Assembly (NCBI GenBank): GCA_021463865.1
Contig: JAJTXY010000014.1
Location: 1 to 64,000 of the forward strand
DNA: 64,000 nucleotides
Origin: Anaerolineae bacterium
GTDB taxonomy: Bacteria; Chloroflexota; Anaerolineae; Aggregatilineales; J027
Direction: 5' to 3'
This document shows positions 7,440-15,762 of the stretch, one piece after another. Below the pieces are notes generated by a model. It was given only the letters and a program-made list of their open reading frames with translations, had not been told where the DNA came from and made no database searches. Each line of letters starts with the position of its first letter. The stretch's first letter is position 1. A program made the position numbers and the translations under genes.

Positions 7440-8672
7440 CTATTCTTCTAGGAAGCCGTCGAGTTCTTCTTTGGCGAGATCGAGGGCGGTTTGGGCATCC
7501 AATTCGCCATTGACCACCGCTTCGAGCAGGGCGTTAACGGAATCTTGCATCTCGTTCTGGCGCACGATGACGGGTGGCACAATCGGGCTTTCCAGAGATT
7601 GGAACACGGCGGCGCGATTGGTGGGCGGGGTTTGTTCCAGATAGGTGGCGAAATATTCGGGCTTATCGAGGGCGGGCAGTTCCCATCCACTGGTGACGCG
7701 CACATTGGCAGCCACTTCGCTGGAGGTCAGATATTGTGCCCATGCAGCGGCTTCGGCGGGGTGTTCGGTGGACTTGGCAACGGCCACACCATTGGCAAAA
7801 AAGTGATGGCCCTTATGCGCCAGACCGGGTTCCAACTGCACGTCCCAATTGAAGGGCAGTTCTGCAAACGCGCCAAACATCCAAATACCCGTCACCAACA
7901 TGCCGACCTGTCCGTTTTGGAACAGTTCTTCGGGGGAGACACCCGCCTGTTCAACCGGGTCGGGCATCACGTCTTCATCAATCAAACTCATCATGGTTTC
8001 AAGAGCTTCCACACATTCGGGTGAATTGATGGTGGATTCGCTCATGTCTTCGTTAAAAAAGGAGCAGTCGTTTTGACCCGCCTTCTTGTAGAATTCCCAG
8101 AACTGCACGGGCGAATAGATGCCCCAAGTGTCGTCACCCAATGCGCGGATGGCCTTGCCTGCTTCCATCGCCTCGACCCATGTCCATTCGGCGGTTGGAT
8201 ATTCAAGACCCGCTTGGTCAAAGAGATCGGCATTGTAGAACAGCAGCACGGTGGAGAAACTTTCCGGCAGGGCCAGTTGAGCGCCCTCATATTGGAAAGC
8301 ACCCAGTGCGGCAGAATAATAGGGGGCATCGGCGCTAAGGCTGGCACTCAGATCAAGCAGTACATCATTGGCGGCATAGGTGACGAAGTTCTCATAGTTG
8401 AGTTCAAACACATCCGGCGCGTCATCGGCCACAAAGTCACCTTGCAGCAGGGTAAAGTAATCGGCAAACGGGGCGGTCTCTACCTCCACGTTGATGGTGG
8501 GGTTTTCGGCCTCAAATGCGGCGATGATTGTGTCGAGGTCTTCTAGGTGGTCAGGGGCGGCGGAAAAGGTGAAATAGGTGATAGACACGCTATCTTGGGC
8601 TTGGCTGTGGCGGGGCATAACGCCCATCACCACCACAACCAACAGGCATAAAGTGAACAATCTACGAAACAT
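7440..8672 (-). CDS. carbohydrate ABC transporter substrate-binding protein (MalE/UgpB type)
   Basis: A 410-residue exported binding protein of the extracellular solute-binding family 1. The signal peptide is at residues 1-25 (MFRRLFTLCLLVVVVMGVMP ... SQAQD). The mature start VSITYFTFSAAPDHLEDLDTII matches the family's opening beta strand, and F-x-N-G-x-V-G-M-x-x-x-G occurs mid-protein (LFQNGQVGMLVTGIW). The ATG at 8672 has a perfect TTTAGGAGGA at 8681-8690; in-frame starts farther upstream lie in the permease and lack such a site. It works with the permeases at 8719 and 9625. No ATPase is encoded in the operon, so a shared MsmK-type ATPase elsewhere is likely. Confidence 0.92.
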   Translation of the reverse strand: MFRRLFTLCLLVVVVMGVMPRHSQAQDSVSITYFTFSAAPDHLEDLDTIIAAFEAENPTINVEVETAPFADYFTLLQGDFVADDAPDVFELNYENFVTYAANDVLLDLSASLSADAPYYSAALGAFQYEGAQLALPESFSTVLLFYNADLFDQAGLEYPTAEWTWVEAMEAGKAIRALGDDTWGIYSPVQFWEFYKKAGQNDCSFFNEDMSESTINSPECVEALETMMSLIDEDVMPDPVEQAGVSPEELFQNGQVGMLVTGIWMFGAFAELPFNWDVQLEPGLAHKGHHFFANGVAVAKSTEHPAEAAAWAQYLTSSEVAANVRVTSGWELPALDKPEYFATYLEQTPPTNRAAVFQSLESPIVPPVIVRQNEMQDSVNALLEAVVNGELDAQTALDLAKEELDGFLEE

Positions 8673-8718
8673 GTGAACGATCCTCCTAAAAACAGTGAAC
8701 AGTAAATGAAATTGGGTG

Positions 8719-9612
8719 TTACCCTTTGATGCCGCTGGTGACGACACCCTGAACGAACCAACGCTGTGCCAATAGGAACACAGCCAGAATCGGCAGCACG
8801 GTGATGACCGCACCTGCCATAACGAGATTCCATTGGGTCAATGCACGTGGCCCGCCCTGCAACACCGCGAGGCCAACTGGAAGGGTCATCACGTCTTCCC
8901 GTCGTGCCACAAACAACGGCCACAAATAGGCGTTCCACAGGCCCATAAAACTGAATACGCCGAGGGTCGCCATAGCGGGCTTGGAAAGTGGCAGCAGTAC
9001 ACGCCAGAAAATCGTGAGGCGATTCGCGCCATCCAAAAACGCTGCCTCTTCCAATTCGCGGGGCAGGGTCAGGAAATGCTGGCGCAGCAGAAATGTGCCA
9101 AACGCGCTAAACAGCCCCGGCACAATCAGGGCTTGATAGGTGTTGGGCCAGCCCAATTCACGGATGAGAATAAACAAGGGGATCAGCGTCACCTGCGATG
9201 GCACCATCATCGTCGCCAGATAGAGCGTGAAGAGAGCATTCCGTCCGCGCCACTCCATCCGCGCAAAGGCATAGGCCGCCATCGCCGAGACGAGGATTTG
9301 CCCAAACGTACCAATCACCGCGACCAACATACTGTTGAACAGCATGTGCTCAATCGGCACGAGATCAAATAATTCGCGGTAGCTGTCAAAGCTGGCCGGG
9401 TCGGGAATCAGGCGCGGCGGCGTTTCTAAGATGTATTCGCGCGTTTTGAGCGACGTGGCGAACATCCAGACAAACGGCACAATCATAATCAGGGCCAGCG
9501 CGGTCAGCAGGATATAGCTTAGGCTGTGACCCAACAGACGCTGGGAGCCTCGTGGCAAGGCGAATTTAGGGCGTTCTTGGATAATGGAGCGTTCGGCGGT
9601 AAGGGTGCTCAT
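8719..9612 (-). CDS. carbohydrate ABC transporter permease (MalG type)
   Basis: A 297-residue inner-membrane permease with about six membrane segments. The EAA loop for ATPase contact reads EEAAFLDGANRLTIFWRVLLP (about residues 185-205). The N-terminus is about 25 polar residues before the first membrane helix. It pairs with the MalF-type protein encoded 12 bases upstream. Confidence 0.93.
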   Translation of the reverse strand: MSTLTAERSIIQERPKFALPRGSQRLLGHSLSYILLTALALIMIVPFVWMFATSLKTREYILETPPRLIPDPASFDSYRELFDLVPIEHMLFNSMLVAVIGTFGQILVSAMAAYAFARMEWRGRNALFTLYLATMMVPSQVTLIPLFILIRELGWPNTYQALIVPGLFSAFGTFLLRQHFLTLPRELEEAAFLDGANRLTIFWRVLLPLSKPAMATLGVFSFMGLWNAYLWPLFVARREDVMTLPVGLAVLQGGPRALTQWNLVMAGAVITVLPILAVFLLAQRWFVQGVVTSGIKG

Positions 9613-9624
9613 GCTGTCCTGCCT

Positions 9625-10509
9625 TTAAATATCGTAATTGACCCAGCGTTTTTGCAGCCGGATTTGGATAAAGGTGATGGCAAAGATCACCGCGAACAAG
9701 ACCCACGACATGGTGGCCGCGTAGCCCATGCGACTGTAGCTAAAGGCGTTCCGTACAATCTGCTCCACCACAACACTCGTGCCGCTGCGGGCGAAACGTT
9801 CTGGCATCAACCACGCCTGCTCAAACACCTGAAACGAATTAATGAGTGAGATAATCAGCGCGAAAAAAATCGAGGGGGTCAGCAGGGGCAGGGTGATATA
9901 ACGCAGACGCTGCCAACTGTGTGCCCCGTCAATCTTGGCGGCTTCATAGTAGGTTTCGGGGATGTTTTGCAGCCCGGCCAGCAGCATGACCGCCACAAAA
10001 CCCGTATCTTTCCAAACACTGGTGATGATGATGGCGTAGAGGGCGGTGTCGGGGTCAAATAACCATGCCGGGCCTTCGATGCCGATTTTCGCCAACAAAA
10101 AATTGAGTAGGCCAAAGCGCGGGTTGAATATCCATTTCCAGATGACAGCAACCACGACCCATGACGCCACAACGGGCACAAAAAAAGCGGTGCGGAAGAA
10201 CGACACCCCGCGCAGCCGTTGATTGAGCAGTAGGGCGGTAATCAGGGCCGTCAGCAGCACCGCCGGAATGTAATAGGCGATGAAGGTCAGGGTGTGTCGG
10301 AAGGCGATCCAAAAATCTTTGTCGTGATAGAGTTCCTTAAAATTATCCAGCCCGATGAATTGCGGGTCTTTGAGTAGATTCCATTCAAACAGCGTCAGGC
10401 CGAGCGAGGACAGAATCGGCCCCAGCACGAAGACCAATAGGCCAACGAGACTGGGGGCGAGGAAAAAAGCCACCCATCCCCATTTGCGTAACCCGACTTC
10501 TCCGACCAC
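9625..10509 (-). CDS. carbohydrate ABC transporter permease (MalF/UgpA type)
   Basis: A permease of about 294 residues with an EAA loop YYEAAKIDGAHSWQRLRYITL. The frame opens with TTG at 10515, but GGAAG directly abuts that codon. The GTG two codons later (10509) has six-base spacing and gives MVGEVGLRKWGW, so I prefer GTG. It forms the heterodimeric channel with the MalG-type partner. It is separated from the ROK gene by about 137 bases holding a small inverted repeat. Confidence 0.9.
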   Translation of the reverse strand: MVGEVGLRKWGWVAFFLAPSLVGLLVFVLGPILSSLGLTLFEWNLLKDPQFIGLDNFKELYHDKDFWIAFRHTLTFIAYYIPAVLLTALITALLLNQRLRGVSFFRTAFFVPVVASWVVVAVIWKWIFNPRFGLLNFLLAKIGIEGPAWLFDPDTALYAIIITSVWKDTGFVAVMLLAGLQNIPETYYEAAKIDGAHSWQRLRYITLPLLTPSIFFALIISLINSFQVFEQAWLMPERFARSGTSVVVEQIVRNAFSYSRMGYAATMSWVLFAVIFAITFIQIRLQKRWVNYDI

Positions 10510-10587
10510 TGGCAACTTCCTTTATTCAGTAAAAAAAGTTTTGGCAAAAAACACCCTTCAAATCTATTGACCTCACCCCCTGACTCC

Positions 10588-12439: not shown

Positions 12440-12468
12440 AAAAAGAGCCGACCATCAAGGCCGACTCT
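12440..12468 (-). terminator. terminator after the tandem BMP gene
   Basis: On the minus strand AGAGTCGGCC and GGTCGGCTCT pair with two wobbles around a five-base loop, followed by TTTTT. It lies 39 bases past the stop. Confidence 0.7.
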
Positions 12469-12506
12469 CTTGAAAAACGGATGGGCTATCACCCGTCCAG
12501 TTATTT

Positions 12507-14510
12507 TTAGCTACCGTAGCCAGTCGTCACTTCGCCAGCGGCCAGATCAATCGCCAGTTGTTCTAGTTCAGCCTGCACTTCGGGGGCAACGGAACCTGCC
12601 AAATCGTGGAAGGGCGCGAGACCCACCTGACCCACAAAGTTGCCGTCCGCAATGGTGCCGTTGGCAAATTGGAGAATGAGGGTCGCCACGCCAGCATCCA
12701 ACAGCTTCATCGCGCTGGAAATCAAGCAGGAATGAGCTTCAGGCACGGTATACCATTGATCCGTGTCTACACCAATGCAGAAGGGAGCGCCACCGGGGGT
12801 GGATACTGCGCCAGCAACTTCGATCAAGCCACCGTTACCGGTCTTACCACCAGCAGCAAATACCACGTCCGCACCTTGATCGAGCGCTTGGCGGGCTGTT
12901 GCAGCGCCCCACGCGGGGTCGGTGAACGCCACGTCCAAACCACCCGGATGGTAAGTCAGCAGGACATTGATGTCGGGGTTGGTTGCCAACGCGCCGAGGC
13001 GATAGCCTTCAGCAAACGCGACAACGGGCGGAACTTGGTCAGTCCCCAAAACCGCCGCAATCGTGCCAGTCTGGTTTAGACGAGCAGCCAAAACACCCGC
13101 CAGATAACCCGCCTGATCTTCGGGGAAGATAAGGCCAGTGACGCCGGGGGTAACTGCGCCTTGGAATTGGTCAACACCGATAAAACGGATGTCGGGATAG
13201 GAAGCAGCGGCTTCGGCAGTGGCCTGCGTGAGAGCGAAACCAACGGTCACGATGATGTCCACGCCTTGTTCGGCAAATTCAGCAATGTTGGTCGCATAGT
13301 CGGCGGCATCTTGGGTTTCAATGAAGTCAACAGTGGCACCGCAGCGGCTAACCGCCAGCACGCCGTTCCATGAGCTTTCATTGAAGCTGCCATCGTCTAC
13401 CTGACCCACGTCCGTAACCAGACCGATACTTAGCTCGCTTAGGTCAAGGCCATAGCAGGTCAAAACCGCGCCAGTCCGCAGGCCATTTTCGGCTTGTTTA
13501 ATCAACGCCTGCACTTCAGCCGGAACCGAAGCCGCGAGGTCATGGAAGTCCGCGAGGCCAACTTCGCCCAACCAGTTGCCAGCAGGAATTGCACCTTCGG
13601 CATAGGCTTTGATGAGGGTCACGAGGCTGACATCAATCAGTTTGGTGGCGCTGGAAACGAGGCACGGATGCGCTTCGGGCACAGTCAACCACTGGTCAGT
13701 ATCCACACCAATGCAGAAGGGGTTGGTGCCAGCGGTGGTGACAGCACTAGCGACTTCAATCAATGCGCCATTACCAGTCTTGCCACCAGCGCCAAAGATC
13801 ACGTCTGCATTTTGGTCAAGCGCTTGGCGGGCTGTTGCAGCACCCCACGCTGGATCAACAAATGCAACATCCAAACCACCGGGATGATAGGTGCTGATGA
13901 TATTGATTTCCTTGCCCAATTGCTCGCCACCCCATGCCGCGCCGGAACGATAGCCTTCATTAAAGGCCACGACAGGCGGAACTTGGTCAGTGCCCAGTAC
14001 GGCGGCAATCGTGCCAGTTTGGGTGAGGCCAGCAGCGAGCACACCTGCGAGGAAGCCGGATTTATCTTCAGGGAAGATCAAGCCGGTTACGTTTGGAATG
14101 GTTTCGCTTTGGAATTGGTCAACACCGATAAAATGAACGTCGGGATAATTGGCGGCAGCTTCAACCGTTGCCTGACCAAGCGCAAAACCGACAGTCACAA
14201 TTACGTTGTAGCCATTATCGGCAAATTCGGCAATATTGGTCGCATAATCGGCAGCGTCTTGTGTTTCGATGTAATCCACGTCAGCGCCGAGTTCCTCACC
14301 CGCCATTTGCACGCCATTCCACGCACTTTCATTAAAACTACCATCGTCTACCTGCCCTACGTCGGTCACAAGACCAATTTTGAGCGGGGCTTGACGGGCT
14401 GTGCGCGAATTTAGGGTACTATCATCGGCAGCAAACGTTGGGGTAAGGCCGATTACTGCAATGGCTATCACAAGCGTGATAGCAATTACACTAGAGAAAA
14501 AGCGTCGCAT
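12507..14510 (-). CDS. BMP-family binding protein, two complete tandem domains
   Basis: A 667-residue exported protein. A signal peptide (about residues 1-28, ending P-T-F-A) precedes two full BMP/Med-type binding domains at about 43-352 and 360-667. Single-domain relatives are about 330-380 residues. Each copy has IGLVTDVGQVDDGSFNES, TGTIAAVLGTDQVPPVVAF, YHPGGLDVAF and PAWGAATARQALDQ, so the copies are very alike. BMP proteins bind nucleosides or similar ligands for ABC import, but no permease or ATPase is adjacent. The start is the ATG at 14510, eight bases after AAGGAG; the TTG at 14516 is too close to that site. The ligand is unknown. Confidence 0.9.
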   Translation of the reverse strand: MRRFFSSVIAITLVIAIAVIGLTPTFAADDSTLNSRTARQAPLKIGLVTDVGQVDDGSFNESAWNGVQMAGEELGADVDYIETQDAADYATNIAEFADNGYNVIVTVGFALGQATVEAAANYPDVHFIGVDQFQSETIPNVTGLIFPEDKSGFLAGVLAAGLTQTGTIAAVLGTDQVPPVVAFNEGYRSGAAWGGEQLGKEINIISTYHPGGLDVAFVDPAWGAATARQALDQNADVIFGAGGKTGNGALIEVASAVTTAGTNPFCIGVDTDQWLTVPEAHPCLVSSATKLIDVSLVTLIKAYAEGAIPAGNWLGEVGLADFHDLAASVPAEVQALIKQAENGLRTGAVLTCYGLDLSELSIGLVTDVGQVDDGSFNESSWNGVLAVSRCGATVDFIETQDAADYATNIAEFAEQGVDIIVTVGFALTQATAEAAASYPDIRFIGVDQFQGAVTPGVTGLIFPEDQAGYLAGVLAARLNQTGTIAAVLGTDQVPPVVAFAEGYRLGALATNPDINVLLTYHPGGLDVAFTDPAWGAATARQALDQGADVVFAAGGKTGNGGLIEVAGAVSTPGGAPFCIGVDTDQWYTVPEAHSCLISSAMKLLDAGVATLILQFANGTIADGNFVGQVGLAPFHDLAGSVAPEVQAELEQLAIDLAAGEVTTGYGS

Positions 14511-14856
14511 TATCAAAGCTCCTTGACTATTTAATTAATTACTTTTTTACGACGCTTTAGATTATAGTGCGTCTTATAGAAGCGGCAAGGTATGAATTAT
14601 CCCCCTAATTCGCTTAAAATGAGCAATTCTGACCAATCATTTTGTGAAAGGGATAGTGTATAATAATAGTGATTTTGAAATGTAGCCCGACAATCGAATT
14701 CGCCGAAATTTTCTCAGCAAAAACAGGTCTATATTAAAACATTGAAGGTGTTTACGCTGCCTTGCTTATAAAAAAGTTACTCAAGGCCACATTTTAATCC
14801 ACTGGTGGATTTGCATGGCAGCAAATTAGGGTTCGGATATTAAGGAGAGGTTTTCA
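14511..14856. other. 346-bp intergenic region, divergent promoters and possible pdxS leader
   Basis: No gene is seen. A TATAAT hexamer at 14659-14664 could be a -10 box for pdxS and would give a leader of roughly 185 bases. A hairpin AATCCA-CTGG-TGGATT (14796-14811) and an adjoining TTTGC/GCAAA pairing (14810-14825) lie in that leader. I recognise no known riboswitch class. Confidence 0.35.
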
Positions 14857-15762
14857 ATGTCTACCAATGGTCATTCCGGCAATGGGGTGCAAAAAGGCAC
14901 CGAGACAGTTAAGCGCGGACTTGCCCAAATGCTCAAGGGGGGGGTGATTATGGATGTGGTCACGCCCGAGCACGCCAAAATTGCGGAAGATGCTGGGGCC
15001 GCTGCGGTCATGGCGCTCGAACGGGTTCCGGCTGATATTCGGGTACAAGGGGGTGTTGCCCGCATGTCTGACCCCGATATGATTGAGGGAATTATTAACG
15101 CCGTGACCATCCCTGTCATGGCGAAGTGCCGTATCGGGCATTTTGTGGAAGCCCAAGTTTTGGAAGCCATTGGGGTAGATTACATTGATGAAAGCGAAGT
15201 ATTGACCCCTGCCGACGAGGAATATCACGTCAATAAACATGCCTTCAAAATACCCTTTGTCTGTGGTTGCCGTAATTTAGGCGAGGCGCTGCGTCGCATT
15301 GGCGAAGGTGCGGCGATGATGCGTACCAAAGGCGAAGCAGGTACTGGTGATGTGGTCGAAGCCGTCCGTCATGCTCGTGCTGTGCTAGGGGAAATCCGCC
15401 GCCTACAAAATATGCCCCCCGAAGAACTCATGACCTATGCCAAAAATATCGGGGCACCCTATCATTTGGTGGTCGAAGTGGCGGAGACAGGTAAATTACC
15501 TGTGGTGAATTTTGCGGCAGGTGGAATTGCGACCCCGGCGGATGCGGCCCTGCTCATGCAAATTGGCGTGGATGGGGTGTTTGTAGGTAGCGGCATTTTC
15601 AAAAGCGGCGACCCCGCCAAACGTGCCAAAGCGATTGTTGAAGCCACCACTCATTATAATGACCCAGACATTATTGCGAAGGTCAGTCGCGGGTTGGGCG
15701 AAGCGATGGTTGGCATCAATGTCACACCAGAGACACTTGTGCTAGGGAAACGCGGTTGGTAA
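14857..15762 (+). CDS. pdxS: pyridoxal 5'-phosphate synthase, PdxS (Pdx1) subunit
   Basis: A 301-residue (beta/alpha)8 enzyme that condenses ribose 5-phosphate, glyceraldehyde 3-phosphate and ammonia into PLP in the cytoplasm. Family marks are [31 protein letters not shown], the catalytic lysine in [11 protein letters not shown], and the second lysine region [11 protein letters not shown]. The C-terminal [10 protein letters not shown] phosphate site is intact and the length is normal. AAGGAGAGG precedes the start. The glutaminase partner pdxT is not adjacent and must lie elsewhere. A terminator follows directly. Confidence 0.97.

Follow-up and report, generated by a model that had tools for sequence, protein, structure and literature searches.

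PnrA/TmpC, BmpD, BmpA and the PnrA of S. pneumoniae are binding proteins with one BMP domain, typically lipoproteins, and often encoded together with their importer. What is the role of a BMP protein that has two domains, no lipobox and no operon? Such a protein is encoded in the window, which is the whole stretch of 64,000 nucleotides analyzed here, from the genome of an Anaerolineae bacterium (G000). It shares with the known proteins their fold, the Pfam family PF02608, the pair of stacking Phe residues and the Asp and Lys residues of the pocket. The favored answer, to which a probability of about two in three is given, is that the double protein belongs to a nucleoside ABC importer as its binding protein, the genes of this importer being scattered over the genome. 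It would then be a new form of the capture part of a known pump.

The gene is one unbroken open reading frame of 667 amino acids with an ATG start, at 12507-14510 on the minus strand, as are all parts of it described below. The Pfam Bmp profile PF02608 matches the protein twice, with an E-value of 5.4e-79 and 265.7 bits for the whole protein against a cut-off of 24.1. Scored separately, the halves reach 135.9 and 133.3 bits, far over the same cut-off, which places the protein among the PnrA-like BMP substrate-binding proteins. A signal peptide, apparently of the signal peptidase I type, covers residues 1 to about 28 (14427-14510; ...TPTFA/AD), and in a reading of its sequence the lipobox cysteine is absent. 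The first BMP domain (residues 43-346; 13473-14384) is joined to the second (residues 360-660; 12531-13433) by a linker of about 13 residues (347-359; 13434-13472). The linker contains Cys352, which is invariant in all ten doubles of the family of this genome (coded f1; other families and genera carry similar codes, such as f2 or g1). The initial annotation was thus right to describe two full BMP domains in one exported chain, and to set their limits at 14384-13434 and 13433-12507. The chain has no permease domain, so it is not a fusion of binding domains to a permease of the GlnPQ type.

Three pairs of cysteines may form disulfides. One pair is retained in each half (266/283 and 578/595), while a third, 352/390, connects the linker with the second half; the second column of that third pair is common to the relatives in family f4.

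Just past the stop codon lies a hairpin with a T run that resembles an intrinsic terminator (12441-12471; fold z -5.5), which suggests that the gene is probably transcribed alone. A sigma-70-like promoter, TTGCCG-16-TATAAT, can be read about 50 bases before the start codon (14561-14588). This is a consensus match only, and such sites are no more numerous in the region than in shuffles. PF02608 binding proteins are usually, not obligatorily, encoded beside their own permeases and ATPase. At this locus neither is adjacent, as had been noticed at the outset, and the msm-type sugar cassette close by (7440-10515) belongs to another kind of system.

How old is the doubling? The first reading of the locus held that the halves were nearly identical, and it pointed to long stretches common to both, such as TGTIAAVLGTDQVPPVVAF. 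These stretches are present, but near identity overstates the likeness: over 306 aligned residues the halves are 71.9% identical in protein, and 70.2% identical overall in DNA. At codon positions 1, 2 and 3 the identity is 78%, 83% and 49%. Because third positions have diverged this far, the duplication is old. It was indeed an in-frame internal duplication, as had been proposed, but the proposal that it was recent does not hold.

Trees of the separate domains lead to the same date. Within the genus, the four other genomes read have the double frame too (87-98% identical), and so do three from two other genera of f1 (69-72% identical), which makes eight f1 genomes in all; G002 and G007 hold a second, diverged double as well. 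These f1 genomes are all relatives of one another, and those with public records were assembled from metagenomes. In a tree of 50 domains, the ten first halves form one clade (98/98) and the ten second halves another (99/96), each spanning four genera, and a tree of 84 domains agrees on these half-clades. This pattern indicates a single duplication before the radiation of the sampled family, with the halves separate since then. Concerted evolution of the halves within f1 is rejected on the same pattern. An assembly artefact is excluded, since about 30% of the DNA differs between the copies and eight separately assembled genomes have the frame open.

Double BMP proteins can be found outside f1 too. 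In family f2, eight were read in genus g55, and here again first and second halves separate (90/92 and 99/99). In another f2 genome, G028, the two halves of the double are sisters, which points to an independent doubling event. Double BMP proteins are thus recurrent in this order rather than one oddity. A further f2 genome, G093, has a frame of 972 amino acids (L158:1798-4713; G093:C583) whose two BMP domains are identical in protein, which reflects either a very recent duplication or an assembly error.

Evidence for the ligand can be provided by the pocket. Twelve positions were checked, drawn from papers on BmpA, BmpD and PnrA (PMC13325309, PMC7093131), and in both halves of the window protein every one is filled as in the family. 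For instance, the BmpA pocket residues Phe27/Phe176, Asp98, Asp225 and Lys242 (PMC13325309) have their counterparts in each half. Among the halves of the other doubles read, the exceptions are one Phe-to-Tyr change (L106), one Leu (L161), and Ala in place of a pocket-side Gly (L105, L106). The nearest solved structure by sequence is Lbp 7x0r, whose ligand is guanosine (PMC9601137).

An AlphaFold2 model of the double (pLDDT 84.8, pTM 0.60), which does not fix the ligand or the relative placement of the halves, predicts the two-lobe fold of such binding proteins. Its best structural matches are guanosine-bound Lbp 7x0r (Z 34.6), adenosine-bound BmpD 6shu (Z 34.2) and PnrA 2fqw (Z 33.2). This search weighed mainly the first half, the second being covered by its sequence and its 72% identity to the first. 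The residues of the nucleoside pocket are missing from the two remaining BMP proteins of G000, the binding proteins of complete BMP-type cassettes on contigs C39 (L103) and C12 (L104), and their ligands are probably different.

Do the two halves bind the same thing? GlnPQ and OpuA (PMC8025302, PMC11065425) also have two binding domains per chain or complex, those of GlnPQ on a short linker. However, these domains belong to another class of binding protein and sit in a membrane-spanning chain, and the two of GlnPQ differ in specificity. The double could likewise act in a nucleoside importer with halves that serve different ligands; they have been evolving apart since before the family spread, and 28% of their residues differ. 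This variant is considered unlikely, since the halves agree at every pocket position listed and in the specificity loop, VTDVGQVDDGSFNES, which makes the same ligand class the most likely. The early suggestion that the protein may bind two ligands is thus possible in the sense of two ligand molecules, given that both pockets are intact. A companion suggestion, that the protein is a stand-alone sensor, finds no backing, as it has no signalling domain that could be found.

If the double belongs to an importer, the remaining parts should be encoded elsewhere. Single-domain relatives are found in BMP-permease-permease-ATPase cassettes in Caldilineales, Ardenticatenaceae, Acidimicrobiales, other Actinomycetota, and families f2 and f7. 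The g55 doubles sit in complete cassettes of ATPase, two permeases and the double BMP gene. In f1 genomes with the double there is a permease pair with neither binding protein nor ATPase beside it (in G000, C1:262247-264434, minus strand). The pair adjoins cinA, and an adenosine deaminase gene lies some 4 kb away. Across these genomes the orphan permeases are 45-47% identical to the cognate perm1; in G000 the value is 45%, to perm1 of locus L068. The closest ATPase to the cognate one is 60-69% identical and stands as a gene of its own, some 46 kb away from the orphan permeases and with no binding protein beside it. One f1 genome that lacks the f1-type double, G006, has retained a normal ATPase-permease-permease cassette. 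In families f4, f5 and f8, orthologues of the permease pair (56-68%) and of the ATPase lie together in permease-permease-ATPase operons that lack a binding protein. Together these arrangements support, and do not prove, the double as the missing component.

Partnership with the complete BMP cassettes on C39 and C12 is less likely. These have their own binding proteins, and their perm1 proteins are 40% and 24% identical to the cognate perm1, against 45% for the orphan. In a separate case, in G021, the BMP gene heading a complete cassette is broken up among several frames (L113:8077-9418), by a frameshift or an assembly error.

Alternately, the double may be a secreted scavenger or buffer of nucleosides that has ceased to work with an importer of its own, and a scavenger without a transporter had been one of the early proposals. 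A gene that stands alone behind its own terminator-like hairpin, and a protein in which no lipid anchor is visible, would fit such a role. Yet cognate permeases and an ATPase without a binding protein persist in the same f1 genomes, and in another genus doubles sit within complete ABC importer cassettes, which makes this explanation quite improbable.

In the favored reading, the nucleoside importer, the double would be an exported tandem of two equivalent PnrA-type nucleoside-binding domains joined by a short linker. Each half would close on a nucleoside and hand it over to a BMP-type ABC importer from other loci, whose parts in G000 would be the permease pair C1:262247-264434 (minus strand) and the tandem ATPase at about C1:310700-313950 (plus strand). 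Doubling would presumably raise the local concentration of loaded binding domains. We infer nucleoside binding, transport and docking on the C1 permease pair, as well as the partnership itself, which is proposed on the grounds of linkage in ancestral cassettes, of homology, and of joint presence in eight genomes that are related and not independent, and in which the three loci are unlinked. Importers with parts encoded apart are known, for instance those that use the separately encoded, shared ATPases MsmK and MsmX (PMC4519317, PMC7658222). Those are sugar importers with a normal ATPase, whereas here binding protein, permeases and ATPase would occupy three loci and the ATPase has membrane-like inserts.

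Besides the unlinked loci, and a model that settles neither ligand nor placement of the halves, two observations count against the importer reading. One is membrane retention, for which no lipobox is visible. The other is that the conserved neighbor across the family is not a nucleoside gene but pdxS, which encodes a subunit of PLP synthase. This gene, the sole copy in the genome, lies head-to-head with the double (14857-15762, plus strand); pdxT sits at C6:103028. The pairing is kept in seven of the eight f1 loci (the window, L025-L028, L030 and L107) while other neighbors change. It raises the idea that the double binds a compound related to vitamin B6, and the best NCBIfam match, a weak one, is to a putative B6 ABC transporter binding protein (NF047927). 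That match has 96.8 bits against a curated cut-off of 400, so membership is rejected. Furthermore, the nucleoside-pocket residues are all kept, and there is no pdxS beside the G005 double or beside the second doubles. Binding of a B6-related compound is therefore rated most improbable. One guess that would link the neighbors to nucleosides is that nucleoside breakdown could supply ribose 5-phosphate, a substrate of PLP synthase (PMC9997740). A conserved regulatory motif between the two genes is rejected, as conservation of the intergenic alignment does not extend beyond the genus.

The candidate ATPase of the nucleoside importer is itself unusual. It is a tandem ABC ATPase (G000:C1 ~310700-313950, the same as L198:4712-7951, plus strand) of about 1080-1448 residues in f1, compared with 516 in L068, and it keeps the Walker A, Q-loop, signature, Walker B and H-loop motifs. 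Inserts of about 440-530 residues in the first nucleotide-binding domain and of 115 to about 395 in the second are found at equivalent places, just past the Q-loop helix. G007, G009 and the f4 genome differ in that some of the sequence inserted into the second domain forms an RDD-like segment of its own, situated at a different position. All this inserted sequence is strongly hydrophobic, with about ten and three spans predicted in G000 by a simple hydropathy scan, and a model of the ATPase gives the inserts as helical at low confidence (pLDDT 64.9, pTM 0.37). When 396 genomes of the class were searched with the first insert, matches came from f1 alone, apart from a weak one in a single f4 genome. 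Both domains of the f8 orthologues have inserts, which are shorter, whereas the f5 orthologues have one in the second domain only. Tandem ATPases with hydrophobic inserts are present at L199-L205, L225 and L217-L224 as well. In open-access literature searched with a few terms, no report of membrane segments inserted into ABC ATPase domains was found. Such an architecture, if confirmed, would be new among ABC motors.

Close relatives of the BMP domain described here are also fused to binding domains of other classes. At L119 a BMP-BMP-SBP_bac_3 chain is followed by an amino-acid-type permease and an ATPase, and at L118 a BMP-Peripla_BP_6 chain is followed by LIV-type permeases and ATPases. In both cases the downstream permease genes fit, by Pfam, the class of the C-terminal domain. 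At L037 a BMP-BMP-SBP_bac_5 chain precedes two unclassified membrane proteins and two ATPases, and L051 and L018 encode Peripla_BP_6-OpuAC-BMP-Phosphonate-bd and BMP-Phosphonate-bd chains. Fusions of BMP with binding domains of other ABC importers were noted at L039, L015 and L033 too. One such mixed-class chain may feed two importers. No report of mixed-class concatemers was found in open-access literature with a few search terms, nor was a tandem binding protein of the BMP class that is free and soluble found described.

A wider reading is possible, at somewhat less than even odds: this lineage took a nucleoside ABC importer apart and rebuilt it. The binding protein would have been set free, doubled, or joined to those of unrelated importers, and a single chain might in this way serve two pumps. 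The tandem ATPase would have gained large membrane domains in both nucleotide-binding domains, at equivalent sites past the Q-loop, to become a membrane-anchored motor. One order has doubled the BMP domain several times, and has also joined it to LIV, His, Dpp and phosphonate-type binding domains. Such natural doubles and fusions make it testable what a second or a foreign binding domain does for an importer.
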